DNA from: Charina bottae
Lineage: Eukaryota > Chordata > Lepidosauria > Squamata > Charinaidae
DNA: 64,000 nt
Reading direction: 5' to 3'
Assembly (NCBI GenBank): GCA_023362775.1
Contig: JALMGJ010000005.1
Coordinates: 82,625,921 to 82,689,920, forward strand
The notes beneath the pieces were generated by a model. That model saw only the letters and a list, made by a program, of their open reading frames with translations, did no database searches and was not told where the DNA came from. Below, one piece after another: positions 5,691-46,437 of this stretch (position 1 is the first letter of the stretch; each line of letters opens with the position of its first letter). A program made the translations under genes and the position numbers.

Positions 5691-6910
5691 GGTTGATCCT
5701 AAAAGTGTAAAGTGATGCGCATTGGTGCCAAAAATCCTAACTACTCATACAAACTAATGCAATTGGAGCTAACAGATGAGGAAAAAGATCTTGGAGTAAT
5801 AGTAAACAGTTCAATGAAGGTGTTAACACAGTGTGCATCTGCTGTAAACAAGGCCAACAGCCTGTTAGGGATAATAAGAAATGGCAGTGAAAATAGAGAT
5901 AACAATATCATAATGCCCTTATATCAATCAATGGTGTGACTGGAACATTGTGTGTAGTTCTGGTCGCTGCACATCAAAAAGGATATGGTGGAGCTAGAAA
6001 AGGTTCAGAGGAGGGCAACTGATGATCAAGGGGCTGGGGCAGCTTCCCTATGAGGAAAGGTTATGATATTCTGGCTTTTTAGTCTAAAAAGGAGGCAAAT
6101 GAGAGGGGACATGATTGAGGGGTACAGAATTATGCATGGTGTGGGTAAAGTGGACAAGGAGATGCTATTTTCCCCTTCCCAAAATACTAGAACCAATTTC
6201 ACCCAATGGAATTGAATCCTAGAAGAATCAGGACAGACAAAAGGAAATATTTTTTTATACAACACATAATTAACCTTTGGAATTCCTACCACAAGATGTA
6301 GTGCTGGCTACCAGCTTGACTGGCTTAAAAAATGGGTTAGATCAGGGGTCGGCAAACTTTTTTATGCCGGGAGCCATTTTGACATGCTCGTGCACATTTT
6401 GAAATGCTCGAGAGCCAGGGGGCAGGGTTTGCGGGCGGGGGCCAATCGCGTGGAAGGGGGCGGGGTTTGCAGGCGGCAGCCAATCACATGGCTTATTGGG
6501 GCGGGTGGAAGGGTGAATCTGGATTTTGGGAGGGGCGGGGGAGAACCGGACCTGCCTGGCCTCTCAAGGCGGGGAGGCAAAGTGGGCTGTTGCGGAGGGC
6601 TGTGCAAATGCGTTTCTGGAATAGACCTGTTATTCTAATTATACTACGGCCCATAGAAATGTACAAAAATTAATTGCATTTTCTCTGGTTGAAGGAGTCA
6701 TGAGTGAGTGGAGTCCCGCTGGTTGGATCCGCTCAGCTGAAGCCTCACGGCCGCCGAACAACAAAAAGGCGCGGGAGGGAGGGAGGGAGAGCGGCCGGGA
6801 GGGAGGCGCTCCGGCCCTTCCCTCCAACCTCCCCGCCGTCCCGCCTCGTTCCCCAGGTTGGCGGGCGGCGCTCGGGAGCTGCGCTCGGGCTTCCTCGGCG
6901 GCGGCGGTGC

Positions 6911-7559
6911 TCAGGGATAGACGCGCGGGCCCGGGTAGGGCGCCCCGCCGCACCAGAAGTCGGGTGCCTGCGGCGTCTCCAGCAGCCAGAGTGGGCGTGG
7001 TGGGGTGGGCGCAGGCGGCGGCAGGCTCTGTCCGGCGGGCAGCCGGTAGTAGTGGCAGTCGCAGCCGCGCGCCGGGTCGTAGGGCGGCGCCAGGATGTCG
7101 AGGAAGGCGGCGGGGCCGCCCTCGGCCGCAATCTGGTGCAGGTTGTCCCGCTGCAGGGACAGCAGGCAGGGCGGCGCGGCGGCCGTGTAGAGGCGGTGCG
7201 AGCGCAGCAGGGCGCGCAGCCGGCGGGGGCCGGGCTGGGGGAGGTGTCGGTGTCCTGCCGCTCGGGCCCCCCTCCGGCCCCGGCTCCTCGGCGGCGTCCA
7301 GGCAGGCGATGCGCAGCGTGCCGTAGAGCACCTTGAGCAGCCCCTGCATGCCCGGGTGGTCATGCAGCGGGATGCAGGCGCCAGCGCGCAGCACGAAGAT
7401 GCCCATGCTGAAGCGCGCCGGCGCGCAGATGTGAATGTAGCTCACCGGCGGCTGCCACGGGCCCGGCACGGGAGAGATCCCGCTTGGCTGCAGCCCCAGG
7501 TCCTCGGCGCGCACCTGCCCCAGCAGCTCTCCCCACGTCCGGCGGGTGCCCATGCCAGA
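6911..7559 (-). pseudogene. ADO: Captured ADO (2-aminoethanethiol dioxygenase) fragment
   Basis: ADO is a non-haem iron thiol dioxygenase that oxidises cysteamine and N-terminal cysteines. The vertebrate gene is a single exon of about 270 codons. Here the minus-strand frame from about 7559 reads through LLGQVRAEDLGLQ, PVSYIHI and the iron-ligand motif IPLHDHPGMQGLLKVLYGT. After a frameshift between about 7260 and 7190 the second frame gives QRDNLHQI (third histidine ligand), FLDILAPPYDP, CHYYRL, WLLETPQ and a terminal PYPGPRVYP before a stop near 6911. The N-terminal 40 or so residues are missing and the middle loop is scrambled, so it cannot encode the enzyme. It sits wholly inside the hAT ends and is therefore a transposon-borne copy. 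Identity is from motif memory and I am fairly sure of it. Confidence 0.85.
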
Positions 7560-7600
7560 ATCCCCGCGACCCGGAGCCAGCGACTGTTCGGAGGGCCCCA

Positions 7601-7702
7601 GCGCGAACCCTGGGGAAGAAACAGACACGCTGATTGGTGGAGGCGTCCTTCCTTCTGAGCCTCCACCAATCAGCGTCTCTGTTTCTTCCCCAGGGTTCGC
7701 GC
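7601..7702. repeat. 44-bp-arm palindrome inside hAT A
   Basis: Arms 7601-7644 and 7659-7702 are inverted copies with a single mismatch, separated by a 14-bp loop. Each arm carries a CCAAT box (CCACCAATCAG) and, reading outward, a pyrimidine tract ending CCCCAG/G that looks like a splice acceptor. Confidence 0.9.
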
Positions 7703-7930
7703 CAAGCCTGCTGCTTCCGGAGACCGGCTTTCCGGATGTCGGGCGGCAGACAGAGAGAGAGAGCCAGAGCCGAGGGGCCAAAGAGCCAGATCTGGCTCAA
7801 GAGCCGCCATTTCCGACCCTTGGGTTAGATCAATTCATGGAAGTCCTGGGGATCAATGGCTATTAGCCTTGATGGCGGTACGACTGCCTCTAAAGGTCTG
7901 ACCTTGTTAGCCTGTTGTAAGGCTTTGAAG

Positions 7931-8168
7931 TCCTGACTGTTCCTCCAGGGGGGCTTTTGGGCCAGGCAGTTAGGTGAGCTCTGCTGGTGTTGGTGATGTG
8001 GTTTTGTTTTGGGAGTTATTGTTAATTAAGGCATCATGAGTTTGTACTTTCATGATGGTTTTAATCTTTGTGTGTTGCCCAGAATCATTGCTGTGAGATG
8101 GGTGACTCTATAAATTGTATATAAATATATAAATATAAATATAAATATAAATATAAATATAAATATAA

Positions 8169-8222
<54 letters not shown>
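7931..8222 (+). repeat. L2-like 3' tail and TAAATA/TA microsatellite
   Basis: A decayed L2-type 3' end (GTTTTAATCTTTGTG, then GCCCAGAATCATTGC and GAGATGGGTGAC) leads into repeated AAATAT units and a TA run at about 8119-8222. Confidence 0.55.
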
Positions 8223-8226
<4 letters not shown>

Positions 8227-8590
8227 AAAGAGAAGATTCTTGAGAGTCCCTTGGACTGCAAGGAGGTCAAATCAGTCAATCCTAAAGGAAATCAACCCTG
8301 ACTGCTCATTGGAAGGACAGATACTGAAGCTGAAGCTCAAATACTTTGGCCACCTAATGCGAAGAGAGGACTCAACTGGAAAAGACCCTGATGCTGGGAA
8401 AGACTGAAGGCAAAAGGAGAAGGGGACGGCAGAGGATGAGATGGTTAGATAGCATCACCGATGTAACAAACATGAATTTGAGTAAACTCCAGGAGACAGT
8501 GGAGGACAGGAAGGCCTGGCGTGCTGTGGTCCATGAGGTCACGAAGAGTCGGACACGACTAAACGACTGAACAACAACAAAATAAATTGT
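8223..8590 (+). mobile_element. BovB (RTE) LINE 3' end
   Basis: Plus-strand reading gives the BovB ORF2 C-terminus: SILKEINPDCSLEGQ, KLKYFGHLMRRED, and the terminal CCATGAGGTCACGAAGAGTC region ending in AACAACAACA. It has frameshifts and no upstream RT, so it is a 5'-truncated copy. Confidence 0.8.
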
Positions 8591-8599
8591 ATAAATAGT

Positions 8600-9689
8600 C
8601 AGTCAGTCAATTAATCTGGGGGATTAGTAAACCTCCTTGTGCAGTTGGTTGGCCACTGTCAGAACAGACTGCTAGACTGACAGGCCAGGGGTCCCATCCA
8701 GTAGAGTACTGTTTATGGTCTTAGGTTTTAAAAGGGGAAATGTATCTACCGCTTCAATATCTTTATTGGCAGTTCTAAGGCTGGTGGTTTGACTTTCTTT
8801 ATATTTAATTTTAGTCCCATCTTTTCACTGTGCTCTGTGACTTGTATTACTAGAGCTTGCAGATCCTTTGCATTTTCATCTATCAAAGTAATGTCATCAG
8901 CATTACTCAGGTTATTTTATATATTTTATTAAAATGTTTATATATTTTATATAATTTTAAAAATTATTAAAACTTTTTAAAAAGAAGATAAAACCAATAC
9001 AAGCTAATATAAAGTAAAAAAGGGAAAATAAAAAAATGAAAGCAGAGAAAGAAAAAAGTGCAAGAAAAGAAAAAAGTTAAAGGAAAATAGAAAGGAAAGA
9101 AAAAAGATACAAAGCAGTGTTTCCAATATTCTTCACAGCAGTTATAAGTGCAATTATGTTTTAAGCTCTCACTCTAAAATTATATCATAATACTCTTCTT
9201 TCTATAATATATCATAGCTTAGGTTATTGATGTTTCTTCCTCCACTTTTAAAACCACACTCATCTTCCAAATCAGTTTCCCTTAATATATAGTCAGTATA
9301 TACTGTAGGTTGAATAAATAAGGGGAGCATATACATCCTTGTCTCACTCCTGTGCCAGTTTGCTTCACTTCTTTGCCAGTCTGCTTCACCATGTTGTGTC
9401 CTTACTATGGCTTCCTGACCTGGATATAGGTTTCATGTGAGGACAAGATGTTCTGGGATTCCCATTTTTCTAAGCACATTCCACAGCTAAGTGGAATAAA
9501 GTTTCTAATAAACTCAAGGAAATGAATGGCAGATCTATATGGGGAGAAAGGGTTTCTTACCTCTTTTTCAATGGAATACTTTATCCTACTTTCATATTGA
9601 AGGTTGTTAGATATAAGTTTCTATCTCTATAAGCTGCTTGCTAAGTCAGAGTAATTTTCTTTAGACCATTGATATGTGTTTTTGAGATG
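8600..9689 (-). mobile_element. Old RTE LINE relic with nested L1 3' fragment
   Basis: The minus strand at 8770-8910 reads an RT segment (ADDITLIDENAKDLQALV, then EKMGLKLNIK) of RTE/BovB type. It resumes after 9229 with decayed flanking ORF2. A short CR1-type tail lies near 8640-8710. Nothing is intact. Confidence 0.5.
8917..9220 (-). mobile_element. L1 3' end fragment inserted in RTE relic
   Basis: A T/A-rich minus-strand L1 3' UTR like those at 32640 and 55860, with a reversed poly(A) on the left. It is flanked by AGGTTATT at 8909-8916 and 9221-9228, which splits the RTE reading, so insertion order is clear. Confidence 0.7.
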
Positions 9690-10096
9690 TACTCATAGTA
9701 GTATAGAGTTGGAAGGAACCTAAGGGGTCAAGTCCAACCCCCTGCACACTGCAGGATTTACTACACCAAGGGTCGGAAATGGCGGCTCGCGAGCCAGATG
9801 CGGCTCTTTGGCCCCTTGAGTGTGGCTCTTCCGCAGCTGAACTCACCCACGCCCCTTCCACGCGATTGGATCCCGCCCCCAAACTCTGATGGCCGGCGCT
9901 GCAGGAGGGCGATTGATTCTTCCTCCTCCCGCCCTCGGGAGCCTTCCAACTTTTGCCAGAGCCGGGCAGTGCTTCTTCGAGGTCGGCGGGTGGGGAAGTT
10001 GGTTGGTCGCCGCCGCCGCCTCTTCCTCCGCCCGCGTTGCAACGGCCGCCGCCGCCCCCCCCGAAGCGCTCGCCAGGCAGGCAGGAGAGCGTCGCC

Positions 10097-10228
10097 ATGC
10101 TGGGCACGCTGCGAGAGGAGACAGCGCAGCTGCTGGGCGACTACCTGCAGCACCGGCTGGGGGACGCGGCGCTGCCCCCCAGCCGCACGGCCGAGACGCT
10201 GCGGCGGGTGGCCGACGAGCTGGAGAGG
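10097..10228 (+). pseudogene. BCL2L10: Captured BCL2L10 (NR-13)-like first-exon fragment
   Basis: Forty-four codons from an ATG in a good context (GTCGCCATGC) read MLGTLREETAQLLGDYLQ, then HRLGDAALPPS, and end in ETLRRVADELER. This is the N-terminal BH4-like start of the avian NR-13/BCL2L10 family of BCL-2 regulators, which share a leading LxEETxxLLxDYxQHR and ALPPS pattern. The preceding 130 bp (GCC-rich) look like the cognate 5' UTR. After codon 44 the sequence jumps abruptly into the 118-bp repeat, so the BH3, BH1 and BH2 regions are absent and no functional protein is possible. Recognition is from memory of the chicken protein. Confidence 0.75.
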
Positions 10229-11345
10229 TGCAGCGGGACGGGAGCATCGCCGGCGGCCCGCGAGGACCGGCCAGGGAAGGCGTGCAGGCGGAGCTGCCTG
10301 CCTGGCACTCGGGCGCTCCGGCTGGGGTGCAGCGGGACGGGAGCTCCGCCCGCGCGCCTTCCCTGGCTGGTCCTCGCGGGCCAATCATGTGGAAGGCGCG
10401 CGGGCGGAGCTGCCTGCCTGGCACTCGGGTGCTCCGGCTGGGGTGCAGTGGGACGGGAGCTCCGCCCGCGCGCCTTCCCTGGCCGGTCCTCACGGGCCAA
10501 TCGCGTGGAAGGTGCGCGGGGGGAGCTGCCTGCCTGGCACTCGGGCGCTCCGGCTGGGGTGCAGCGGGACGGGAGCTCCGCCCGCGCGCCTTCCCTGGCC
10601 GGTCCTCACGGGCCAATCGTGTGGAAGGCGCGCGGACGGAGCTGCCTGTCTGGCACTCGGGCACTCTGGCTGGGGTGCAGCGGGACGGGAGCTCCGCCCG
10701 CGCACCTTCCCTGGCCGGTCCTCGCGGGCCAATCGCGTGGAAGGCACGCAGGCGGAGCTGCCTGCCTGGCACTCGGGCGCTCCGGCTGGGGTGCAGCGGG
10801 ACAGGAGCATCGCCAGCGGCCCGCGAGGACCGGCCAGGGAAGGCGCGCGGGTGGAGCTCCCGTCCCGCTGCACTCCAGCCGGAGTGCCTGAGTGCCAGGC
10901 AGGCAGCTCCGCCCGTGCGCCTTCCCTGGCCGGTCCTCGCGGGCCAATCGCGTGGAGGGCGTGCGGGCGGAGCTGCCTGCCTGGCACTCGGGCGCTCCGG
11001 CTGGGGTGCAGCGGGACGGGAGCATTGCCAGCGGCCCGCGAGGACCGGCCAGGGAAGGCGCACGGGCGGAGCTCCCGTCCCGCTGCACCCCAGCCGGAGC
11101 GCCCGAGTGCCAGGCAGGCAGCTCCGCCCGTGCGCCTTCCCTGGCCGGTCCTCGCGGGCCAATCGCGTGGAGGGCGTGCGGGCGGAGCTGCCTGCCTGGC
11201 ACTCGGGCGCTCCGGCTGGGGTGCAGCGGGACGGGAGCTCCGCCCGTGCGCCTTCCCTGGCCGGTCCTCGCGGGCCGCTGGCAATGCTCCCGTCCCGCTG
11301 CACCGCAGCCGGAGCGCCCGAGTGCCAGGCAGGCAGCTCCGCCTG
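10229..11345. repeat. 118-bp GC-rich tandem and inverted repeats in hAT B
   Basis: A unit containing GAGCTGCCTGCCTGGCACTC, CGGCTGGGGTGCAGCGGGAC, and GGTCCTCGCGGGCCAATCG recurs at about 118-bp spacing (starts near 10288, 10408, 10526, 10640, 10755, 10970, 11187). Between 10800 and 11330 the same blocks also appear inverted, giving palindromic pairs. Each unit has one CCAAT box. Long open frames on both strands here are by-products of this GC-rich periodicity. Confidence 0.85.
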
Positions 11346-11424
11346 CGCAGTCGTGGCAGCGGGCATGGTGGTGGCGGGCACTGCAGCGGGCATGGCGGCA
11401 GGAGGCCCTAAGTGTGCGCGATTG

Positions 11425-11530
11425 CCTCCCACCCGCAAACCCCGCCCCCTTCCATGCGATTGGCCCCCGCCCGCAAACCCCGCCCCCTTTCACGCGATTG
11501 GCCCCCGCCCGCAAACCCCGCCCCCTGGCT
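11425..11530. repeat. 38-bp CCAAT/GC-box minisatellite (hAT B)
   Basis: About three units of the form CGATTGGCCCCCGCCCGC followed by AAACCCCGCCCCC lie beside the GTTTGCCGAC end. The same unit occurs in elements A, C and D at the same relative place. Confidence 0.85.
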
Positions 11531-11741
11531 CGAGCATGTCAAAATGCCCTGGAGCATGTCAAAATGGCTCCTGGCATAAAAAGTTTGCCGACCCCTGTAC
11601 TACACCATTCCTGATAGATGACTATCCAGCCTCTCTCTGAAAACCTCCAGTAAAGGGGAAAAAAACACTCCATGCAATAATTCCACTGATTGACAGTTCT
11701 TACTGTCAAGAAATTCTTCCTAATGTCTAATCTGTATCTAC

Positions 11742-12233
11742 ATTTTATTTATTTATTGTGGTATTTATACCCCGCCTATCCCCTCCCTAATGGAGGACTC
11801 TAGGCGGCTTACAGGCATATATATACATTAATTATACAGATTCACAAATCACCATTTACACCGCGCGTAAGGGGAGGGGGTAAGGGAACCGACTCTTCCA
11901 GGCTCTGGACTACAATTCCCAGGATGCCTTGAGCCGGCTGCTGACGTCCTGTAGCTGTTGCATCTGGGTCCGTCGTCACCGCTGCCATTTGATCCTCCTC
12001 CGATCCTTTCCTCCGGTGGTGCCGACTTCCCGACAGGACGCCAGCAAATTAGCCCACTTAAGGTGGTACCCATTTATCTACTTGCTAAGCTTTCGAACTG
12101 TTGGGTTGACAGGAGCTGGGACTAGCAATGAGAGCTCACCTCATTGCATGGGGTTCGAACTGCAGACCTTCTGATCTGCAGCCTACAGCTCAGCAGTTTA
12201 ACCTGCTGAGCTACCGTGTCCCATCGTACCGTG
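11742..12233 (-). repeat. tRNA-derived SINE with L2-type tail
   Basis: The minus-strand head reads GGGACACGGTAGCTCAGCAG (box A TAGCTCAGCAG) and box B GTTCGAACC. The 3' end has GCGGGGTATAAATACCAC and a TAAA run resembling the L2 3' end, so it probably borrows L2 machinery. It interrupts the CR1 at 9690-12700. Confidence 0.75.
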
Positions 12234-12934
12234 TACATCCTTGAAATTTCATCCTATTAGTTCTAGTCTTACTCTATGGAGCAAGTGAGAATAAGTCCAA
12301 ACTTTAACACTGTGACAGCCCTTCAGATATTTGAAGACAGCTACCATGTCCCCTCTTAACCTTCTCTTCTGCAAGCTAAACATACCTAGGTCTTTAAACT
12401 GTTCCTCGCAGGACTTGGTTTCCAGTCCTTTTGCCATCTTGGTGGCCTTTCTCTGGAGTAGCTCCAGTTTATCAGTGTCTTTTTTTAAACGGGGGTGTGC
12501 AGAATTGAACATAGTACTCCATGTGAGCCCTGACCAAGTCAGAGCAGGATAATTACTTCCCGTGACCTAGACTCTATATTCCTCTTGATGCTCCTCAAGA
12601 TGTGGTTAGCCTTCTTTGCATCTACGTTACACTGTTGGGAGATATTGAGCTTGTGATCCACTAATAGACCATCCTTCTCCCATGTATTATGCTGCTAAAC
12701 TACCAACATGCCTTAGCACTGGGCTTGCTTCCTGTAGCTGCCTCCTAAGCCTGCTCTAGACCAAGCAGTCTAGAACAGATTATTCCATTATTTATAGATT
12801 TCAAAATGTGTTGCACGGGATCAGAAAAGGTTATTTTTGATAATACTAACAAATTCTATGCTCTTTCACAGGAGGTGAGTTCTCTTACAAGTTCCTCTTG
12901 TCATAATAGCAGTGTCATAAGTTTCCAGGGGGGG

Positions 12935-13960
12935 GGGTTCCTTTAACTTCCTCTTTACCTTCCAGCTCAAAAGCCTCCTGGCTGGATACCTCCCCCCTTG
13001 TCCTTTCTTTTGCTAGCCCAACTAATCTTAATTTGGGGCACCAACCCCCATATTCCTAGTTAGGGGCACCAACCCCTACTACCTCTACCTGGGCACCAAC
13101 CCAGATAGTCCTAATTTGGGCACCAACCCAACTGACAAAACCTTGCTGCCACCACCCTATCTCTATAATTCCCACAGCCCTAGGGAAAGCTGTGGGGCTC
13201 TGGGCCAAACTTTCATAACTTCCAAGGAGGACTTCTCCCTTCCAGCCCCAACCTTGGGAATTTAATCATCTACACACTCCCGATAGCGACGAGCCAAGTG
13301 GTTAGGCAGGCTGGGTAGAATCTCATTTCCATGTACACGACCACAATACCAATATGTAAGATGTATATATTTTATTAACAATTATAATTAAGACTTACAT
13401 ACCAAAATAATAGTTTTAAAAAAGACATTGTATGCAAGACAGCAATTAAAAATAATAAAAACTATCTTTCTAAAATTTACTGTAGTTCCCTAATCTGGAT
13501 AAGTTGTTTTTTATCCAATTCCAGGCATAATAAGATAAAATGCATTTAAGCAGGTTGCAAAAAGATACTAACCCTTCGATGGTAACAAAGCATCCTGTTG
13601 TTGCTGATGACCTTGAGAGGAGAATGTCTCTCCCTATCCTTTCCATTCCCTCTTCTATTTTTATAAGGCAACCTCCCAATCAAAGCTCGACCAGCGAGGC
13701 TTCAAGGGCGTTGCCCAACGAGCTACTCAAATTTCCCTCCCAACTGAATGCAGCTGCAAAAGGTCATTAGAATATCTTTTATTACCTGGATCCAGCAATT
13801 CAAAGGAGAAGCTGGCCAAACTTCCTCCTCCGAAGTAAAGGATCCCAACTCAACACTTGCTCTTAGAGTTGTTTCTAATAACTACCTGGCTTGCTGCCAG
13901 AGTCCCAAATGACCCAAGATAGGGTCTAGCAACATGCTTGTTCTTCACACTTCACTTTCT
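12935..13960 (-). mobile_element. Possible solo LTR
   Basis: On the minus strand a CTTATAAAAATAG box near 13660 lies about 290 bp before an AATAAA near 13370. This is followed by a region with four spaced copies of GGGTTGGTGCCC at 13030-13130. The arrangement fits a solo LTR of about 1 kb, but I could not define ends or a target duplication. Confidence 0.3.
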
Positions 13961-14830
13961 GGTGTAATTTTCCTCATAACCCAAACCCATTGAAGTAAAA
14001 AGGAAAATGAAGCCTTAGTGTTTACAAACAGGGTAGCTTCTCTTATTTTTGTCAGCAACTCTTATTTCTGGGTAAAAGATGCATCCACTGAAATTTCTCA
14101 TCAAGCTTTAAAACATGTTAGGGAAAAGATTAAGAAGTTCATTAAAGGTACAGGCTCTGTGGATGGTCCAATATTGTATGAAGTTAATATCAAAAGTGTG
14201 TTCATCTCATCTGTGAAATTTAACTATTCATTTCTTGGGGCAGGGATGAGAATTGCTTAAACATGTTCTAGTGAAAGAAGAAGGGGCCACCCTAGGACTC
14301 ACTGGCTTGACACCATCAGAAGGGACACTGGAATGACTTTGATGGAACTAAAGGAAGCTGTAAGAGATAGAAAGGCATGGAAAGCATTGATCCACAAAGT
14401 GACTGAGAGTCGGGCACGACTGAACGGATAGACAGCAGTTCTAGTGAAAAATTAAAACTAAAATAAAAGGAAGATTCATGTCTTCTGAATCTAAGAGAAC
14501 AATAAGGGAAATAGTCTTGGATCCTTTTGTCTTTGCCAGTTCTATAGATCAAGGAAATGTAAACATCTCTGTTCAGGACTGGCCTTAACACCAGATCCAG
14601 GCAACCTATTGTTTTACAAGAAATGTTATGCTTAGATAAATGTAAAAGTCAGTTATTCATCTGACTGGCTACAATTATTTCTAAAGAAGAGGAGAATCAA
14701 CTCTTGAGTGAGTCAGTAAAACAATTATGCCTGCCACTTAATATCTTTCCTCTCTCAAGTTGTCAGGGTCAAAAAATAAAAGCGCTATAGAATTTTGGTA
14801 GTCATAGAGCATCATATCCCCATAGAATCA
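13961..14830. other. Mostly unassigned; RTE tail at 14283-14440
   Basis: At 14283-14440 the plus strand reads RRGHPRTHWLDTIRRD, then VRDRKAWKALIHKVTESRAR, an RTE-type C-terminus different from BovB in detail. The rest shows nothing recognisable. Confidence 0.5.
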
Positions 14831-15068
14831 ATTTATTTTATTTATTAAACAGATTTATAAGGCCGCCCAACTCACACACGGTGACTCCAGGCGGCTTACA
14901 GAATTAAAAACCATAAAAACACAATAGACACCCCCCGGCAGCAGCAGATACATTCATACCAGCCACTTGATTGGCTCCGAAGCAGTTTGGAGTTCCCAGA
15001 CCCGTTGACAGAACCACGTCTTCAGGGCCTTCCGGAACAGGAGCAAGGAGGGGGCCAATCTTATATCA

Positions 15069-18122: not shown

Positions 18123-18134
18123 CTCCCCTTTTTT
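18123..18134 (-). other. Copia polypurine tract
   Basis: In element orientation the sequence AAAAAAGGGGAG lies directly before the 3' LTR start TGTTG, the expected plus-strand primer. Confidence 0.85.
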
Positions 18135-19542: not shown

Positions 19543-19550
19543 CCACCTAC

Positions 19551-26755: not shown

Positions 26756-26756
26756 T

Positions 26757-35101: not shown

Positions 35102-35699
35102 TTCCTGTTTCTTAGCAATAGCCATTCTTTCATCCAAACCCAACAGCAGGCTGCAAAATACAATTTAAAGTCTGTGAGTCCTAATCCTCCTCTTTCCTTT
35201 GCATCCTGAAGAATGTTATATTTAACCCTTAGTTTCTTGCCCTGCTTTATAAATCTGGATATATCTTTTTGCCATCGTTTGAAAGGTGCATCATTTCTCA
35301 AAACAGGTATTGTCTGAAATAAGACCATCATCCTAGGTAACACATTCATTTTTACCACAGAAATTCTTCCAAGCAATGATAATCATACTTTTTCCCACCT
35401 TAATAAATTCTTCTTAATTTCACTCCATACTTTACCTTCATACCTTCACCTCCATACCTCCGTACCTTAATATAGTTATTTTGAAATAACATACAATTCA
35501 TAGTAGTCATAGTCACCCAAATATTTCACTTTTTTCCTCAACCTGAAACCCAGATTTAACAGACAATTCTTTTTGGTCTTCTGTTCTCATATTCTTTGTC
35601 AACAATGTTTTTCCTTTATTAATTTTAAAACCATCCAGAGCACCAAACATCTACCTATTTTGACATAAATAAACAGAGTTCTTGAAACAGTTCCATTTA

Positions 35700-36640
35700 C
35701 CTGAACATAAGAACATAAACTGGATCAGACCCCTGGCCCATCTACTCCAGTCTGAGTAGAACATAAACTGGATCAGACCCCTGGCCCATCTACTCCAGTG
35801 GCCAACCAACTACACAAGGAAGCCCACTGTTACACTGCAATCAAGGCTAATAGCCATTGATCCCCATTAATTGCTCCAATCCTTTTTTGAAGCCAACCGA
35901 GCTAGTAATCAGCACCACATCTTTTGGTAAAAGGTAAAGGTTCCCCCCGCACATTTGTGCAGTCGTGTCCGACTCTAGGGGCCGGTGCTCATCTCCGTTT
36001 GTTAGCCGAAGAGCCAGCGTTGTCCAAAGACGCTTCCACGGTCATGTGGCCGCATGACACGCGTGGAACACTGTTACCTACCCACCGAAGTGGTACCTAT
36101 TCATCTACTTGCATTTGCATGCTTTCAAATTGCTAGGTTGGCAAGAGCTGGAGCTAGTGGGGGAGCTCACTCCACACGCAGGGCTAGGGATTCGAACCTC
36201 CGAACTTGTGATCTTCCGATCGACAAGCCTGGCATCTTACCCGCTGAGCCACCACGCCCCTCACATCTTTTGGTAGTGAATTTAAAACTTTGATTACGTT
36301 GTGCATTGTGTAAAAAAATATTTTGTCGTGATTTTTAATTTAATTGGGTGATCTCTGGTTCTAGTATTTTTGGAAGGGGAAAATAGCTTCTCCTTGTCCA
36401 CTTTATTGATGACATGCATAATTCATGTCCCCTCTCATTTGCCTCCTTTCTACACTAAAAAGCACCAAATGTTGCAACCTTCATACGAAAGCTGCTCTAG
36501 CCCCTTGATCATCTTGGTTGTCTTCCTCTGAACCTTCTCTCCACTATATCCCTTTTGAGGTGCAGCAAGCAGAACTGCAAACAGTATTCCAGATGCAGTC
36601 GCACCATTGATTAATGTAATTATGTTATAATATTAGAAAG
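35700..36640 (-). mobile_element. CR1 LINE 3' portion, split by SINE copy 3
   Basis: The reversed CR1 3' UTR with GGATCAGACCCCTGGCCC appears twice at the left (a 50-bp tandem duplication at 35705-35800). It continues after the SINE with the C-terminal region (reverse of FRGRQPR-type text at 36500). Not coding. Confidence 0.75.
35930..36261 (-). repeat. tRNA-derived SINE, copy 3
   Basis: Flanked by the perfect 14-bp duplication CACATCTTTTGGTA (35916-35929 and 36262-36275) within CR1. Confidence 0.92.
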
Positions 36641-36843
36641 CCAGTTTGGTGTAAGTATCAGACTAGACCTGGGAAACTCTGGGTTCTAGTCCTACCTTCA
36701 GCACAAAGCCAGTTGGATGACCTTGGGCCAGTCAATCGTCCAAGCCCTAGGAAGAAGGCAATGGCAAACCACTTCCAAAATCTTTTCAAGAAAACTGCAG
36801 GGACTTATCCAGGCAGTCACCAGTAGTCAACATTGACTTTAAG
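36641..36843 (+). repeat. Sauria-like SINE with BovB-type tail
   Basis: Head AAAGCCAGTTTGGTGTAAG, body GACCTTGGGCCAGTCA, and tail TGCAGGGACTTATCCAGGCA followed by GTCAACATTGACTT, the BovB-like 3' end used by Sauria SINEs. Confidence 0.65.
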
Positions 36844-36854
36844 GAATATATGTA

Positions 36855-37997
36855 GAGGTAGTCCTTGACTTGGGCGTGGTGGCTCAGCGGGTAAGACGCC
36901 AGGCTTGTTGATCGGAAGATCGCAAGTTCGAATCCCTAGCCCCGCGTGCAGAGTGAGCTCCCGCACTAGCCCCAGCTCTTGCCAACCTAGCAATTCGAAA
37001 GCATGCAAATGCAAGTAGATGAATAGTTACCACTTCGGTGGGTAGGTAACAGCGTTCTGCGCATGTCATGCGGCCACATGACCGTGGAAGCGTCTTCGGA
37101 CAACGCTGGCTCTTAGGCTAACAAACGGAGATGAGCACCGGCCCCTAGAGTCGGACACGACTGCACAAATGTGCGGGGGTAACCTTTACCTTTACTTAGT
37201 CCTCGACTTACAATGGCAATTGGGACCAGAATTTTGACCAGAGTTTGAAAGCATGGCCGCATCGCTTAGTGACGGCAATCCCTACAGTCCCGATTGCCAC
37301 TGTTAACTGAATCTGATGGTCTGGGGGGGGTCAGGGAGGGTGCGCGAGAGGCGCGGCATGGGGAGAGGGTGCGAGGGGTTGTACAAGATGTGCTGCGTGG
37401 CTCGGGGAGGGTGCAAGGGGATGTGTGAGAGGTGCCGTGCAGGTCAGGGAGGGTGTGTTGGGGTACACGAGAGGCACCATGTGGTGTGGGGAGACTGCAA
37501 GAGGTGCAGCAGGGCGTGGGGAGGATGCGAGGGGGTGTGCGAGAGGCACCACGTGGGTCAGGGAGGGTGTGAGGGGTCCATGAGAGGCGCAGCGGGGCAT
37601 GGGGAGAGTGCGAGGGTATGTGTGAGAGGTGACGCGTGGCGAGGGTGCGGAGGAGTGTGTGAGTGGCCGGCACAGCACAAGTGTGGAGCGGGTGGGGGAG
37701 GGTGCGCAGGTGGGGGAGATTTACCCCAGTGACTTGCGATTTTCCCTGCTGGCTTCCCCTTTGATTTTCTGGGGAAGCCAGCATGGAAGGTTGCAAATGG
37801 CGATCATGTGATTGTGGGGCGCTTGGCAACCGGTTGTAAGTGCGAGTGGGTTGCCAAGCACCCAGATTGCGATCACGTGACCGTGGGGGTGCTGGGATGG
37901 CTGGAACTCCGAGGACTGGTCGTAACCACCATTCATTCAGTGCCATTGTAACTTCGAACAGTCACTGAACGAATGTCTTTAAGTTGAGGACTACCTG
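36855..37997 (+). mobile_element. TA-flanked non-autonomous DNA element, copy 3
   Basis: The left end GAGGTAGTCCTTGACTT is followed by SINE copy 4, then the duplicated end TAGTCCTCGACTTAC. The right end is AGTTGAGGACTACCTG. The interior 37320-37730 is a G-rich array with a period near 52 bp built on GGGAGGGTG and GAGAGGCRC motifs, the reverse of the array in copy 2. Confidence 0.75.
36872..37196 (+). repeat. tRNA-derived SINE, copy 4
   Basis: The best preserved tRNA head: box A TGGCTCAGCGG, box B AGTTCGAATCC. The tail is CCTTTACCTTTAC. The duplication TAGTCCTYGACTT (36859-36871 and 37197-37209, one mismatch) lies inside the DNA element, so this SINE is the younger of the two. Confidence 0.92.
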
Positions 37998-38027
37998 TGT
38001 ACGTATGTGTTTGTGTGGGGACTGGAC

Positions 38028-38245
38028 ACAGATACAGGTTCAAGAGTGGAACTATAATCAGCCACCTCCTTTACATAGATGACATCAAGCTGTATGCTAA
38101 GAGTGAACAAGACATCCTTTAGCTGATCCACCTAACATGGATCTACAGTGCGGACATTGGGATGTCATTTGGACTGGAGAAGTGTGGCCAGATGGTAGTA
38201 AAGAGGGGGAAGGTAGTTAAGACTGATGGGGTGGGACTACCAGCA
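38028..38245 (+). mobile_element. R4/Dong-type LINE RT fragment
   Basis: The plus strand reads HLLYIDDIKLYAKSEQDI, then ADIGMSFGLEKCGQMVVKRG and KVVKTDGVGLP, typical of R4/Dong (restriction-like-endonuclease) LINEs. It is cut off at the telomere-like 38247-38262 block. Confidence 0.7.
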
Positions 38246-38246
38246 A

Positions 38247-38262
38247 TTAGGGTTAGGGTTAG
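38247..38262 (+). repeat. Short interstitial telomeric repeat
   Basis: TTAGGGTTAGGGTTAG, 2.7 units of the vertebrate telomere repeat, lies exactly between the R4 fragment and the truncated hAT C. Confidence 0.7.
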
Positions 38263-38280
38263 CGTTCACCCTTCGTGGGT

Positions 38281-38775
38281 GCAGTGGGCAGCGGCGACGG
38301 GGCTCTCCCCTACCGCTTCCGCAACAGCGGGTCTTAGTGAGGGCTCCAGGGGGGCGGCAAGGCATCTCCTGCTCGGGTGCCTTCCGCTCTCCCGCGCCCG
38401 TCCTGCCGGCCGGAGGGTGGGAGCTGTTTCTCCGCCATTCCCGGAGCAGTGGGCAGCGGCAACGGGGCTCTCCCCTACCGCTTCCGCAACAGCGGGTCTT
38501 AGTGAGGGCTCCAGGGGGGCGGCAAGGCATCTCCTGCTTGGGTGCCTTCCGCTCTCCCGCGCCCGTCCTGCCGGCCGGAGGGTGGGAGCTGTTTCTCCGC
38601 CATTCCCGGAGCAGTGGGCAGCGGCGACGGGGCTCTCCCCTACCGCTTCCGCAACAGCGGGTCTTAGTGAGGGCTCCAGGGGGGCGGCAAGGCATCTCCT
38701 GCTCGGGTGCCTTCCGCTCTCCCGCGCCCGTCCTGCCGGCCGGAGGGTGGGAGCTGTTTCTCCGCCATTCCCGGT
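38281..38775 (-). repeat. 165-bp tandem repeat x3 (captured unidentified exon?)
   Basis: Unit starts are at 38281, 38446 and 38611, with only about two base differences visible. On the minus strand each unit has an ATG (GGAATGGCGGAGAAACAGC) opening MAEKQLPPSGRQDGRGRAEG and on to a stop after about 34 codons. Because 165 is a multiple of three, long frames run through the array on both strands. I could not identify the source gene. Confidence 0.85.
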
Positions 38776-38864
38776 GGGGCGGCCGGGACGGGTTCGCGGA
38801 GCCGCTGGCTGCGCGGAGCCGCTGGCTGCGCCCCCTCCCTCCGTGAGCCCCTCGCTGCCTTCCA

Positions 38865-39092
38865 CGCCATTGGCTCCCGCCCGCAAACCCGGCCCCAAGC
38901 CAAGCGATTGGCTCCCGCCCGCAGAACCCGCCACCCTTCCACGTGATTGGCTCCCGCCCGCAAGCCCCGCCCCCTTCCACGCGATTGGCTCCCGCCCGCA
39001 GAACCCGCCCCCTTCCACGCGATTGGCTCCCGCCCGCAAAACCCGCCCCCTTCCACGCGATTGGCTCCCGCCCGCAAACCCCGCCCCCTGGC
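38865..39092. repeat. 38-bp CCAAT/GC-box minisatellite (hAT C)
   Basis: About six units of TTCCACGCGATTGGCTCCCG plus CCCGCARAACCCGCCCCC. This is the longest array of the four hAT elements. Confidence 0.9.
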
Positions 39093-39162
39093 TCTCGAGC
39101 ACTTCAAAATGTGCACGAGCATACCAAAATGGCTCTCGGCTCAAAAAGTTTGCCGACCCTTG

Positions 39163-41289
39163 ATCTAGTGGATTCTCCAAAGTAAAGACTAAGTCGTCAG
39201 CAAAGGCTCTTAATTTATAAATTTCTTTTTTAACCTTAATACCATGGATACCTTCATCTTGTCTAACATCTCTCAATAAAACTTCTAATACCAATATAAA
39301 CAAAAGTGGAGATAATGGACAACCTTGTCTTGTACCTTTTTGAATTTCATATGGTTTGCTAAATTCTCCGTTAACAATTATTTTTGCAAATTGGGGAGTA
39401 TATATTGATCTAATCCATTTAATAAAGTTTCCTCCAAAATTCATATTTTCTAATACTTTAAACATAAAAGGCCAATTTAAATTATCAAAAGCTTTTTCAG
39501 CATCTATAAATATCAAGGCAGCTTGTTTTTCATAGTGTTGTTCCAAATATTCCAATATATCTAATATATTTTGAACATTGTCACGGATCTGTCTCTTAGG
39601 CAGAAATCCTGCTTGATCTTGATGGATAAAGTTTTTAAGAATGTTTTTCATTCTTTCTGCCAATATAGTTGTAAAAATCTTATTATTCAGTAAAGATATT
39701 GGTCTATAATTCTTAGTTAAAGTCAAGTCTTGTTGTTCTTTAGGAATCAATGTTATATGTGCTTCTTTCCAAGTCTCTGGCATTGTTCCTGTTTCCAAAA
39801 TCGAATTCATAGTCTTCTGTAAGGGTAAACATAATTCATCTTCGAAACATTTATAATAAGCTGCTGACAGGCCATCTGGTCCTGGTGCTTTTCCACTACT
39901 AATTTTCTTAAAAGCCTTTACCATTTCCTCTGTTGTTATAGGATTATTAAGCATTAACCTTTGTTGGTCATCAGGAACAGTTAATTTCTGTTTACTCAGA
40001 TATTCATCAATGTCCATCAAACTAACTTCTTGTTTTTTTATATAATTTTGAATAATAATCATAAAAAGCTTCTTGTATATCTATATTATTCACCATAACT
40101 TTTCCATCATGTTGTATATTAGAAATCAAGTTTTTTTGTCTTTGTTTCCGTAATTTATAAGCCAACCATCTACCTGGTTTATTAGTATACTCAAAATATT
40201 TTTGCTTTGTAAATTTCATTTGAGTCTCTATCTCTTGTGTCAATATCATTGATATCTGTTTTTGTAAAAATTTAATTTGAGTAAGCAAAGTATCATCCAT
40301 TGGCTTATCTCTTAAAAATGTCTCTTTACTTTTTATTTCATCTAAAATCAATTGAATTCTCTCTTGTTTCTTTCTCCTCATCTGAGCGTTATATTGTATA
40401 AAATAACCCCTCATATATGCTTTGCTAGCATCCCATACAATCTGAGTATTAGTGCCTTTGTTTGAATTCAGTTGAAAATATTCCCTTAACTTTTTTTTGC
40501 ATGCATCAACTATATCATTTTTCCTAAATATTGACTCATTTAATCTCCATCTAAATACATTCCGTTTTCCTTTAACAGTCAACATTACTGGATTATGATC
40601 TGAAAGAGTCTTGGGTAATATTTCAAGTTTACTAACGTCCATCATTAGACTTTTAGATATCAAAATAATATCTATTCTGGAATGTGATTTAAATCTCTCT
40701 GAGTATTACTCTCTAGAGTATTACTAGTAATATTCTCTAGAAGTCCCATTCATAATTCTCCAAATATCTTGTAAGTCTAACATCTCTTTTAAGTCAAAAA
40801 ATGTTTGTGGCAATTTTCCCTGTGTATGTTTCACTTCTTTTTGTGCTTGTCTGTCCATCTTAGGGTAGATTACCCCATTCCAATCACCCATGAAACACCA
40901 GTTTTCATAAGTTTGATCCAAAAGTTTATCCATCAAATTTTTATAAAATACTCCTTTATCCATATTCGGTGCATAAAGTCCAAAAACCAATGTTTTAGTT
41001 CCTTGTATGTTAATTTCAACTGCAACATAACGTCCTTCATCATCAGTTAATATCAATTTTGGATTTAACTTTGGTTATATATACAAAACTACCCCCTTCG
41101 TTTTTTTATTTCCAGCCGACATAAATTCTTATCCAAATTGTTTCTGAATCAGGTATTTAGTGTCTTTTTTGCAAATATGAGTCTCTTGCAAGCAAATTAT
41201 ATCCAATTTCAGTTTTTTCAAAAAATGAAAGATCTTTCTTCTTTTCTGTGGAGCGTTAACTCCATTAATATTCCATGTCAGATATTTAT
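39163..41289 (-). pseudogene. L1 ORF2 endonuclease-RT part
   Basis: Pieces: LKLDIICLQETHICKKDTKY (endonuclease, 41129-41290), FGLYAPNMDKGVFYKNLMDK and FMGDWNGVIYPKMDRQ (40724-41056), SDHNPVMLTVKGKRNVFRW (40022-40663) and RT (SGKAPGPDGLSAAYYK, LIPKEQQDLTLTKNYRPISL, IFIDAEKAFDNLNWPF, GTRQGCPLSPLLFILVLEV, RAFADDLVFTLENPLD). The frame 40062-38266 remains open through the junction into hAT C, giving a 598-residue chimeric frame with an L1 RT start and a GC-rich hAT end. Frameshifts at 40690, 41060 and elsewhere inactivate ORF2. Confidence 0.85.
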
Positions 41290-44275
41290 CATTGGCGATC
41301 ACTCGTAGCCGAGTAAGATTGTCTTCCAAAGGTAAAATTTTAACGGTGGATCCGTAAGTGGCTATAAAGGCCAATTCTGGATCCGCACAACCTCCCACAA
41401 TGAGGGCATAGGTTTGGGTGGGAGACGGTCATGATGAGGGTTTGCCTGATGTGCCTTCCTTTTAGCTCTTTTCTCCCTTTCGCCCTGTACTCGTGCTTCT
41501 TCAAAGTCCATAGCGCCATTAATAAAGGCTGACCTCCAATTGAAACGCTCATGAGTTAGGGCTTCCCAGTTCTCAATGCTGATATTACATTTTTTTTAAA
41601 TTAGCTTTGAGAGTATCTTTGAATCTCTTTTGCTGTCCACCAATATTCCGTTTTCCATTCTTAAGTTGGGAGTAAAGTAGCTGCTTTGGAAGACGATGGT
41701 CAGGCATTCGAACAACATGGCCGGTCCAGCGAAGTTGATGTTGGATGATCATTGTTTCAATGCTGGTGGTTTTCGCTTCTTCTAATACGCTAACATTAGT
41801 CCGCCTATCTTCCCAAGTAATCTGCAGAATTTTTCGGAGGCAGCGTTGATGTAATCTTTCAAGAAGTTGGAGGTGGCGTTTGTAGAGGGTCCATGTTTCA
41901 CAGGCGTACAGAAGGGTTGGTAGTACAATGGATTTGTAAACAAGCATTTTGGTCTCCCTGCGAATGTCCCGATCCTCAAACACTCTACGCTTCATTCGGG
42001 AGAAAGCTACACTCGCAGAGCTCAGGCGATGCTGAATTTCAGCGTCGATGTCGGCTTTTGTAGATAGATGGCTGCCGAGATAAGAAAAGTGGTCGACATT
42101 TTCTAGTGACACACCTTATAACTGGATTGATGGCGCTGCGGAGGGATTGGTTCGAACTTGCTGGTAAAGCACTTTGGTTTTTTTAATGTTAATCGAGAGG
42201 CCGAGCTTTTCATATGCTTCTGCAAAGATGTTTACCCTCACATTAGGATAGTTTGAAGATCTTCCTCAGAGTGTGCACAGACTACATTATCATCAGCATA
42301 TTGAAGTTCTATAACAGAAGTTGCAATTACCTTATTTTTTGCTTTCAGCCTACTAAGATTAAAAAGCTTTCCATCTGTTCGATATATAATTTCTACACCA
42401 GTAGGAAGTTTCTCTTCAACAAGGTGTATAATCATAGCGATGAAGATAGCGAATAAGGTTGGAGCAATAACACATCCCTGTTTAACGCCGGATTCCACTT
42501 TAAATGGATCGCTTTGAGAGCCATTGTTATTCAGGATTGTTGCCATCATGTCGTCATGGAGTAACCGCAAGATGTTCACAAATTTATCAGGGCATCCAAT
42601 TTTCAGAAGGATGGTCCAGAGAGCAGTACGATTTACAGCATCAAAAGCTTTAGTCAGATCAATAAACGCCATGTACAGAGGGTGGTTTTGCTCCTTGCAT
42701 TTTTCTTGAAGCTGTCGTGCAGTGAAGATCATATCCACTGTTCCCCTGGAAGGGCGGAAGCCATTTTGCGTTTCAGGGAGGATGTCTTCTGATACAGATA
42801 GGAGACGGTTTGCGATGATCTTTGCCAGGATTTTGCCTGCTGTGGCTAGAAGGGAGATGCCTCGATAGTTTCCACAGTCTGTTCTATCACCCTTTTTAAA
42901 AAGAGTGATAATTATGGCATCCCTAAAGTCTGCTGGAATCTCCTCCCTCATCCAGATTTTTTCGATGAGCTTATGAAGTTGTGTAAGTTCAGGCCCGCCT
43001 TCTTTAAAGACTTCAGCAGGAATCCCATCAGGTCCACTAGCTTTGTTATTTTTCATTTGTTTAGTGGCTTTACTGACTTCCTATAAACTAGGGGGTACTG
43101 CAAGCTCATTTCTTATTTGTTTTTGCGGGATTTGCAAGAAGACTTCATCAGCCACAGTAGAGTGCCGATTAAGGAGATTGTAGTAATGCTCTTTCCAGCG
43201 CAGTGCAATAGACTCTTTGTCCTTTAGAAGTTTAGCACCATCTACTGAGCGTAAGGGATTTGTACCATGGCTTGTTGGTCCATAGATGGCCTTTATGGCA
43301 TTAAAAAAGCCCCGTGCATCATGAGCATCTGCAAAATGTTGGGTTTCTTGGGCTTTTTTTATCCATCATATGTTCTTAAGTTCTCTAGTTCTTCTTTGGA
43401 CTTCTGCCTTTGCACTGGCGTAGATTTTTTTCTTAACGGCACAGTTAATATCTTTTTGCCATATCTGGAAGGCTTTCCTTTTCTTGTCAATAATATGTTC
43501 AATCTCACTATCGTTCTCATCAAACCAGTCCTGATGTCTCTTAGTCTGGTATCCGATAGTTTGTTCACAGGCTGAAATAATAGAAGTCTTCAATTTAGTC
43601 CAGTGTTCCTCAACATTTTCAGGAAGTTCCATAGGCAGATGTTCCTTGAGAGTTGATTGAAAGCAAGCTCGTTTAATAGAATCTTGAAGGGCCAGTGTAT
43701 TCATTTTACGCCTTGGTTTTCTTCCTTGGAGCCTACGATGAGGGACAATCTTTATGGCCATCGTGGATCGAATTAATCGATGGTCTGTCCAGCAGTCATC
43801 GGCGCTCGTCATGGCTCTGGTGAGAAGTACATCACGGCGATCTCTAGCACGGACAATTACATAATCTAAAAGATGACAGTGCTTCGACCGTGGGTGCTTC
43901 CATGAGGTTTTAAATTTATTTTTCTGGCGAAAGAGTGTGTTAGTAATGACAAGGTTATGCTCTGCACATTTAGTCAGTAGTAAGATTCCATTCGTGTTGC
44001 TGTTGTCAACTCCTTCTTTCCCAATGATCCCTGGTCACAAATCAAAGTCACGCCCAACTCTTGCATTGAAATCGCCCAGGAGGATAATTTTATCCTCCTT
44101 TGGTATCTCTGATAAGATGGTGTCCAGCTGGGTATAAAAATTTTCCTTGATATCCTCATCTGCATCTAGTGTTGGTGCGTAAGCACTTAGGATAGTTGCC
44201 TGTTGGTTTTTGGTGAGTTTTATTCGGAGAGTTGAGAGAATTAATTAATTAAGTTGAGAGAATTAATGGAGAATA
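41290..44275 (-). mobile_element. LINE-Z copy 1 (endonuclease-RT-C2H2 finger), 5'-truncated
   Basis: It inserted in L1 ORF2 with a perfect 34-bp target duplication (41256-41289 and 44276-44309). Domain order on the minus strand: endonuclease (QATILSAYAPTLDADEDIKE near 44170, GDFNARVG, HPRSKHCHLLDYVIVRARDR), linker, RT (NNKASGPDGIPAEVFKEGG, GNYRGISLLATAGKILAKII, GFRPSRGTVDMIFTARQL, FIDLTKAFDAVNR, SGVKQGCVIAPTLFAIF, YADDNVVCAHS), C-terminal LLYACETWTLYKRH and RWTGHVVRMPDHRLPKQLLY. The last piece is a zinc finger CPHCGRLCGSRIGLYSHLRIH (41340-41552). The 3' end is AGTGATCGCCAATG without poly(A). The clade is not assigned with certainty. RTE-like or Vingi-like are candidates. Confidence 0.85.
42238..43056 (-). 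pseudogene. LINE-Z copy 1 reverse transcriptase core
   Basis: An open 272-residue RT stretch from MKNNKASGPDGIPAEVF through the QYADDNVVCAH catalytic motif. The arginine codon kept here (EIIYRTDGK) is a stop in copy 2. It is flanked by the same in-frame stops as copy 2 upstream (before EVSKATKQ) and downstream (before GVSLENVDHF). Confidence 0.85.
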
Positions 44276-45119
44276 TTAACTCCATTAATATTCCATGTCA
44301 GATATTTATAATCCATAATTGGTTGGTAAAATCAGCCAGAGGTGACATGTGGATGGGTCCAGACTATGATTAATACATCCTTGGCGGAGGGGGTGGTTCC
44401 AACTGCCTTTACAGAGGCACTGGTGCACCCCCTCCTCAAGAAGCCAGCCCTGGACCCTACCATCCTGGACAATTTTCGTCCAGTCTCCCACCTCCCCTTT
44501 TTGGGAAAGGTGGTTGAGAAAGTGGTGGCGTTGCAACTTCAAAGGACCCTGGATGAAGTGGATTATCTAGACCAAGGGTCAGAAATGGCGGCTCTTGAGC
44601 CAGATCTGGCTCTTTGGCCCCTCAGCTCTGGCTCTCTCTGCCGCCCGATCCGTAGCCGGGCGGCGAGGAAGAGGACGCCGACGCTGCCTCCTCCTCCTCC
44701 ACCGGCGGGAGAGAAGGAGGAGCGGCTGCCCGCCTGCCTCCGCCCGCCCTGAGGGGACCCACCCGGCGGCGGCGGCGGCTCTCCTGAAGCTCGCCGCTTG
44801 TCACCGCCCGCCTTGTTTCCCGCCCCCATCACTTCCTTGGCCCGACGCGGGTGGGCGGAAGCGGCAGCCCCACCCGCGCCGAGTGGCGGTAGCGCGTCCC
44901 CGCCGCCGCCCTTTCTGTCCGGCTCGGATCCCAGGAAGGCAGCAGGGGGCCTCGCGGAGGGAGGCAGGCAGGCAAGCAGGCGGGCGGGGCGGCCGGGCGG
45001 CCCGGGCCTCCACCTCCGCCGCCGGGCCCGCCCCCCTCGGCGCCTGTGCAGCTCCCCCGCGCCCGCTCCGCCCGGCCAGACATGCCCCGCTCTGGAGGCC
45101 AGGCTCGCTGAGGAGGACC

Positions 45120-45135
45120 ATGACTGCGGCGGCGG
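45120..45135 (+). pseudogene. Duplicated MED13L-like start segment
   Basis: The string GCTGAGGAGGACCATGACTG followed by CGGCGGCGG repeats the start region at 45873 for about 30 bases and then diverges into unrelated CpG-rich sequence after five codons (MTAAA). Confidence 0.55.
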
Positions 45136-45872
45136 CTCCCCTGAAGTGCGCCACTTGTCGCCGCCCACCTCGTTTCCCGCCCCCTTCATTTCCTTGGCCC
45201 GACGCGGGCGGGCGGCAGCTCGTAGCGCGGAGCAACCCGGCGCTCTCCGTTCCTCCCTTATCCCTTCACCTAGCAAGGGGCAGCGATGCTGCCGCCGCGA
45301 CTGCTTCGCAGGGGCGGGGGGGCTTTGTCTCCTCGTCTCCCCACCCCATTTCCCGGGCTGTGAGAACAAGGGCCTGAGCCGGCGACTTAGCACTGGCCCC
45401 CTCCTCCTTGCACGGCTGTGCCCCATCTAGGTTCGTCAGGTCTGTCTGCGCGTAACTTGGTTCGGGGAAGCCGCGGCTTCTCCGGGAAGAGGGGAGGGGG
45501 TCGCCCGCCCTTCCTCCTCCCCCTCCCGCCGGTTAGACCAGAGCCGGGGTAGCAGCAGCAGCAGCAGCAGCTTCCCCTGGAACCCAAGCTGGGCGTGGGG
45601 GTGGCTGGTGGGCTTTGCGCTTCCGCCTCGGTGCTTGCTCCGTGGCCTCCTTGGGTGCCCCCCGGATGATCAACCCAGACAGGTTGCTGCAGTGCCAGAC
45701 GGCCCAGGTCCCCGCGCACCCTTGGCAAAAACGTGCTCCAGAAGTTTTCACGGGAAGGGCCCGATTTGGGGAAGAAGGCGCTGCTGGAGCGTCGCTTTCC
45801 GTGCCCGACTCACCAGCAGCAGCAGCAGCAGCTGGAAAGGCTGCAAAAGTCACGGGCTCGCCGAGGAGGACC

Positions 45873-45920
45873 ATGACTGCGGCGGCGAACGGGGCGAGCC
45901 TGGAGGACTGTCACTCCAAC
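45873..45920 (+). pseudogene. MED13L: Captured MED13L-like first-exon start
   Basis: Sixteen codons read MTAAANGASLEDCHSN. MED13L, a kinase-module subunit of Mediator, begins MTAAAN and has NGASLEDCHSN shortly after. The match here lacks a few residues between these blocks, by deletion or lineage difference. The preceding GAGGAGGACC context repeats at 45110. After CHSN the sequence departs into other hAT sequence, so only the beginning of the exon was captured. The short length limits certainty, but the motif is distinctive. Confidence 0.65.
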
Positions 45921-46249
45921 CCTGCTGGCTGCGCCCCCTCCCTCCGTGAGCCCCCCGACTCTTCCACGCGATTGGCCCAGCTCCCATCCGCGGGGCTCCT
46001 CCGCCTTCGCCCCGAGGTCTCCAGGGAAGCCCGTCCCGCTGCACTAAGGGGGCTTGGACCCAGGACCCCGGGCGCAGGACTGCACCTCTTCGCCCAACCT
46101 GTTAGCAAGGGCCCCGGGAAGCACAGCCCTCCGCAACGAGCCGCACAGCCCACTTCACCTACCCACCTTGAGAGACCAGGCAGGTCCCGTTCTCCCCCGA
46201 CCCTCCCAAAATCCAGATTCGGCTTCCCACCTGCCCCAATAAGCCACGT

Positions 46250-46352
46250 GATTGGCCCCCCGCCCGCAAACCCCGCCCCCTTCCACGTGATTGGCCCCCG
46301 CCCGCAATCCCTGCCCCCTTCCATGAGATTGGCCCCCGCCCGCAAACCCCGC
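46250..46352. repeat. 38-bp CCAAT/GC-box minisatellite (hAT D)
   Basis: Three units with GATTGGCCCCCGCCCGC and CCCGCCCCCTTCCA lie just inside the GTTTGCCGAC end. Confidence 0.85.
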
Positions 46353-46437
46353 CCCTGGCTCTCGAGCATTTGAAAATGTGCACGAGCATGTCAAAATGGC
46401 TCCCGGCATAAAAAGTTTGCCGACCCCTGATCTAGAC

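Follow-up and report, generated by a model that had tools for sequence, protein, structure and literature searches.

Gene capture by hAT transposons in animals has been described in a survey of 100 genomes, in which 208 of the 370 reported Pack-TIRs (TIR, terminal inverted repeat) were Pack-hATs. Approximately 366 of the 370 were single-copy. Four, found in frog and alligator, were multicopy, with an example present at three places; such cases lean to high GC (guanine plus cytosine) content and have distant parents (PMC8277862, Tan et al. 2021, as far as the available text of that report goes). Here we describe three elements, A, B and D, in a 64,000-nucleotide stretch of the Charina bottae genome (the window), together with a fourth, C. 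It is very probable that A, B and D are Pack-type hATs: non-autonomous elements, all from a single Buster-type family, in which fragments of host genes have been captured. On this reading they were amplified in trans, a 656-amino acid transposase being the probable driver, and C is a broken copy of the transposase-bearing element.

The elements are like animal Pack-TIRs in having hAT ends around host gene DNA, target site duplications and recognisable parental copies. They are unlike them in that each class of cargo is present at about a dozen to approximately 150 places, different cargoes are joined together and the genome also contains an intact transposase linked to matching ends (PMC8277862, available text). 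The sequence-only reading, made before any database search, had considered such a family little described in vertebrates, which needs qualifying with 208 animal Pack-hATs in print; animal Pack-hATs are already known, and it is the copy number, the mixing of cargo and the intact partner that are unusual here. In the open-licence literature, to the extent of its accessible text, no vertebrate family with several amplified cargoes was found.

A captured host gene has also been amplified in Pseudocercospora and its relatives, where a hAT with histone H3 is present in hundreds of copies (PMC6710886); that element is fungal and carries one gene, whereas several sources contributed to one family here. 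There is a further likeness to the Pack-TYPE elements of plants, including maize Pack-hATs: the largest clusters, from hAT and PIF, contain more than 100 elements, and the clusters of maize hATs exceed one hundred, but all of these sit in plant genomes (PMC8903248). In their ends, the elements resemble Buster-type hATs and their short non-autonomous derivatives, which have nnnTAnnn duplications and CAGGGG-type ends, and the Buster2 subterminal repeat TGCGGCTC resembles the GCGGCTC of the family here (PMC3517528, PMC4298943); nnnTAnnn is the consensus of the 8-bp duplication of Buster hATs (PMC3517528). The patchy host distribution of Buster-type hATs has been put down to horizontal transfer and, unlike the family here, their derivatives are described without host gene cargo in the available text of both reports (PMC3517528, PMC4298943).

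One hAT family at many sites

Positions are those of the whole window, while D-numbers such as D485-577 and D1300-1740 are positions within element D. The strand of an element was set by the position of its CAGGGGTC end, which places A on the + strand and B, C and D on the - strand.

6343..7822, + strand: element A, non-autonomous hAT with ADO cargo (ends, perfect duplication)
6335..6342, no strand: left target duplication of A, GGTTAGAT (sequence read)
7823..7830, no strand: right target duplication of A, GGTTAGAT (sequence read)
9767..11597, - strand: element B, non-autonomous hAT with BCL2L10 cargo (ends, perfect duplication, genomic relatives)
9759..9766, no strand: left target duplication of B, TACTACAC (sequence read)
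11598..11605, no strand: right target duplication of B, TACTACAC (sequence read)
44573..46429, - strand: element D, non-autonomous hAT with mosaic cargo (ends, perfect duplication, genomic relatives)
44565..44572, no strand: left target duplication of D, ATCTAGAC (sequence read)
46430..46437, no strand: right target duplication of D, ATCTAGAC (sequence read)

A, B and D share asymmetric ends, and each is flanked by 8-bp target duplications that are identical at 8/8 positions; the coordinates and ends first given for A, B, C and D, and the three perfect duplications of A, B and D, proved exact. The terminal inverted repeats are short, with 9/10 bases alike between CAGGGGTCGG and CAAGGGTCGG, and the GC content of the flagged elements is 68-74%, compared with 45% for the window. 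No transposase was seen among the open frames of A-D, as had been claimed; these frames are those of GC-rich DNA and of captured genes, and only ADO (by Pfam) and BCL2L10 (by PDB) were recognised among them. The interiors had been said to differ completely, which did not hold, as the stretch at the CAGGGGTC end of A has approximately 140-150 bp in common with B and C and approximately 250-290 bp in common with D.

When D is removed and one duplication is kept, the empty site (window 44200-46800) contains a continuous open reverse-transcriptase-like frame. We take this frame to be that of a long interspersed nuclear element, from its motif and not from a database match.

To describe the family, 68 loci in the window's own genome were used, which are the best matches to A, B and D and not a random sample. 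Duplications were scored where both ends lay no more than 3.5 kb apart, with a shift of up to 2 bp tolerated at each end. Both ends were present in 61/68 loci, and among these 61 the 8-bp duplication was perfect in 53 and matched at 7/8 positions or better in 55. The distinct perfect duplications followed the nnnTAnnn pattern, with T at the fourth position in 48/49 and A at the fifth in 48/49. Three BCL2L10-bearing elements (L015, L016 and L017), which have the same duplication and lie approximately 27-28 kb apart on C110, represent a local segmental duplication and were collapsed to one among the 49. Segmental duplication or an assembly artefact was rejected as the origin of the family, because the sites are dispersed and have differing perfect duplications.

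One further complete element, L070, with the duplication AACTAGTC on both sides and 95 codons of BCL2L10, was added to the 61 end-paired loci to give a set of 62 elements. These are 854-2293 bp long with a mean GC content of 71%; over the initial 700 bp of the loci the mean is 43%. An exact 46-bp end occurs 1,972 times in the genome, compared with 0 for the reversed control, a count of ends and not of cargo carriers. Within four subfamily sets (8, 6, 7 and 5 copies), the copies differ from their consensus by approximately 1% at non-CpG sites and are therefore young. In the same sets, transitions have occurred approximately 8-16 times as often at CpG sites as at other G/C sites; the copies therefore appear to be methylated in the germline, and behaviour as unmethylated CpG islands was rejected.

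Captured gene DNA and its source loci

6791..7529, - strand: ADO-derived stretch in A, from approximately codon 48 to beyond the stop codon (C223:96907599-96908351 at 90%; L069 499-1245 at 90.7%; PF07847)
9998..10227, + strand: BCL2L10-derived end of the 5' untranslated region and first codons in B, ATG at 10097 (95.7% over 232 aligned bp to L073)
10275..11343, no strand: GC-rich tandem array inside B, periods 116 and 215 (repeat analysis)
45220..45871, + strand (nominal): module of D with an element-free source locus, C100:16548521-16549420 (89% over 672 columns with gaps)
45873..45921, + strand: MED13/MED13L-like start exon in D, frame MTAAANGASLEDCHSN (solved MED13 chains read NGASLEDCHCNLF)

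The reverse strand of A encodes part of ADO (PF07847, E 4e-23; solved ADO chains, E 6.9e-28). A search of the genome with PF07847 gave 28 matches from 30 candidates, the best of which lies 14.3 Mb from the window in a frame of 262 codons without interruption (C223:96907458-96908246). This source gene matches A over the interior of A only. Among the best 40 of 5,151 candidates there were approximately 12 near-complete copies of A, with 11 matches over 1478-1480 of its 1480 bp, A itself included, and a twelfth in two pieces.

B carries the beginning of BCL2L10 exon 1, from the last part of the 5' untranslated region into the first codons. The B fragment alone gave a weak solved-structure match to zebrafish BCL2-like 10 (E 0.0018). 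In a protein search with the residues of L070, all 150 scored candidates matched (the best 150 of 496), and among these a whole Bcl-2 domain was present only at C2:16698235-16698639, on a contig other than that of the window; this locus was taken as the source. Identity to this source is 94.7% over 374 bp for L070 and 95.7% over 232 for B. The BCL2L10 piece is carried by 24/62 elements, and BCL2L10 sequence is found at no fewer than 149 further places, which are sequence matches and are not counted as complete elements. Tandem arrays are present inside both B and C.

The main module of D, which is GC-rich, differs from its source on C100 at 12/505 non-CpG sites; L071 and L072 were rejected as sources of D cargo, both being elements themselves. 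Next to this module is the MED13-like start exon, whose frame MTAAANGASLEDCHSN we take to be the start of MED13L less four residues. The 21 residues of D alone gave no match in a PDB search, while a 38-base stretch of the MED13-like piece occurs at 73 genomic places with no more than 2 mismatches, compared with 0 for the control. The region D485-577 is present in 25/62 elements. The ADO, BCL2L10 and MED13-like pieces all run in the direction of the transposase, although three are too few for a bias.

The ends of the family (up to 5 edits) are absent from the 1800, 1300 and 900 bp fetched around the ADO, BCL2L10 and C100 sources, respectively, which bears out the earlier proposal that one hAT family took up GC-rich host DNA several times. 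Neither a single common interior nor interiors lacking any host gene match, either of which would have spoken against that proposal, was found; the interiors vary and match host genes. The description of these interiors as 5' exons was not supported for ADO, as the cargo in the elements is the last four fifths of the coding sequence with 99-135 bp past the stop codon. In a Pack-TIR/Pack-TYPE element, transposon ends enclose DNA that is not from a transposon and of which a parental copy exists at another place. A and B fit this definition, as does D in its main module.

The transposase-bearing element

38263-39162, - strand: C, truncated copy of the CAAGGGTCGGCAAAC end of the transposase-bearing element, not a Pack element (interior match; last 130 bp identical to L079)
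7609..7822, - strand: end of A also present at the left terminus of the transposase element (214 bp at 84%)

The sequence-only reading had called for a search for an autonomous hAT with the same ends, and a transposase-bearing element was found. The hAT dimerisation family has at least 86 matches in the genome (among the best 150 of 285 candidates); a stop-free frame of 656 amino acids is present in 17/86, and one more carries a single stop. This frame scores 29.1 bits for Dimer_Tnp_hAT against a cut-off of 21.4, while zf-C2H2_12, DUF4371 and zf-BED are below their cut-offs, and a PDB search with the transposase gave no match. One transposase copy starts with CAAGGGTCGGAATTGGCGGCTC, in which 21/22 bases are as in the Pack elements. 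An intact frame was linked to each end, the two ends being read in different copies, and the length of the element is estimated at approximately 6.5-7.5 kb.

C had been listed as a fourth gene-capturing element, and this was rejected. It has the CAAGGGTCGGCAAAC end only and no target duplication, its interior matches sequence within 4 kb of 13/17 intact transposase genes (among the best 40 of 1,195 candidates) and its last 130 bp are the right terminus of one of the transposase copies; C is therefore a truncated copy of the transposase-bearing element.

The break of C, at window 38243-38262, falls on TTAGGGTTAGGGTTAG, a telomere-like repeat. Break repair sometimes leaves repeats of this kind. 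An inverted repeat of approximately 100 bp lies near the end of A (window 7601-7702), with a related stretch at the left terminus of the transposase-bearing element.

How the cargo could have been acquired and amplified

The short ends of A, B and D are retained and would be usable by a transposase. Internally deleted copies may have taken up GC-rich gene DNA, through template switching or gap repair, while DNA was being repaired or replication had stalled, and the filled copies, having kept their ends, could then have been moved in trans by the 656-amino acid transposase or a close sister. Later rounds of capture, with internal duplication, would add modules and give rise to composites.

Several points weigh against this account. 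The source of the MED13-like piece was not found; a search of the genome with Pfam Med13_N was without a match, and as the control genomes were likewise matchless, that search is uninformative. The D1300-1740 module, present in 45/62 elements, has no assigned source, no source search having been made for it. Microhomology gave no clear signal at the four junctions. None of the transposase copies was read over its full length, and the ends of the Pack elements differ from the transposase copy by approximately 8-16% in the stretches compared; a sister element may therefore be the real driver.

Another possibility is that a single composite ancestor took up all of the cargo once and that the differing interiors arose by later deletion or rearrangement instead of independent captures. 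In its favour, BCL2L10 is joined to a D module in 15/62 elements, five D modules occur together in 13/62 and A and D have 5' stretches in common. However, ADO is never together with BCL2L10 or the MED13-like piece in any of the 62 elements, a set chosen by best match to A, B and D, and divergence from the source at non-CpG sites is higher for BCL2L10 (2.0-3.9%, five copies) than for ADO (0.8-2.4%, eight copies). A single ancestor is therefore considered unlikely.

It is highly improbable that the captured frames are maintained by selection as functional genes. Seven ADO-bearing copies are stop-free across model positions 1 to 200 or 201 of 201, but long open frames occur in GC-rich DNA anyway, and in eight ADO copies non-CpG change is alike at codon positions 1, 2 and 3 (11/1204, 20/1265 and 11/1084) and elsewhere (45/5630). 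Selection on captured ADO was rejected, there being no sign of constraint across these copies.

Gap filling, in which host DNA filled breaks in existing hAT copies at each site and the filled element never transposed, is favoured for most animal cases and is the main model for single-copy animal Pack-TIRs (PMC8277862, available text), and it could have produced the founding copy of each cargo class, but as an account of the amplification it is refuted and has almost no likelihood left, since identical cargo and breakpoints are found at many sites with different perfect duplications (8/8 ADO-bearing copies; 49 distinct overall).

Amplification of captured cargo in trans is thus the reading that we prefer. 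A single assembly contains a young family of many copies and several cargoes, some of them joined into composites, together with the surviving source loci and transposase frames that are still intact. By contrast, captures of genes by DNA transposons in animals are described as present mostly in one copy each and as not depending on transposition (PMC8277862, available text). Two questions become testable in an animal: how hATs acquire genes, and whether GC-rich gene DNA is preferred.

Relatives of the transposase and possible effects on the host

Among the best 120 of 1,101 proteins, 11 match the transposase (L074:1288-3255) at 82-87% identity across 90-99% of its length, and those named among the 11 are from bats, reedfish and two frogs. 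Proteins of named snakes and lizards among the same best 120 are 48-51% identical to it. In a tree of 30 rows, which included no named Buster reference, the transposase was placed inside the bat-fish-frog group. Because it is far closer to the bat, reedfish and frog proteins than to those of named snakes and lizards, acquisition by horizontal transfer is suggested, from protein comparison made without a host-gene yardstick. The relatives are named GTF2IRD2-like, and a neighbour of the Buster-type Mar is also named GTF2IRD2-like (PMC3517528, available text).

A horizontally acquired hAT could shuffle genes in the manner of plant Pack-MULEs. It would acquire GC-rich host gene fragments again and again and fuse them into chimeras, with ends rich in CCAAT and GC boxes on either side, and would have spread thousands of mobile cassettes of promoter plus exon through the genome, some of them driving new host transcripts. 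We regard this as a speculative and rather doubtful extension. Over the terminal 230 bp on the CAGGGGTC side, there are on average 3.3 predicted CCAAT-type and 4.3 predicted GC-box motifs per element (61 elements), compared with 0.34 and 0.67 in a single-base shuffled control.

Two further features were seen at the transposase-bearing copies. Just upstream of the transposase frame, L074:650-1210 is GC-rich and tandemly repeated with a 52-bp period. At L075:100-151, a transposase element begins 8 bp past the end of another member of the family, and the single ACCTAGGT between these two elements is palindromic, which looks like a target duplication used a second time.

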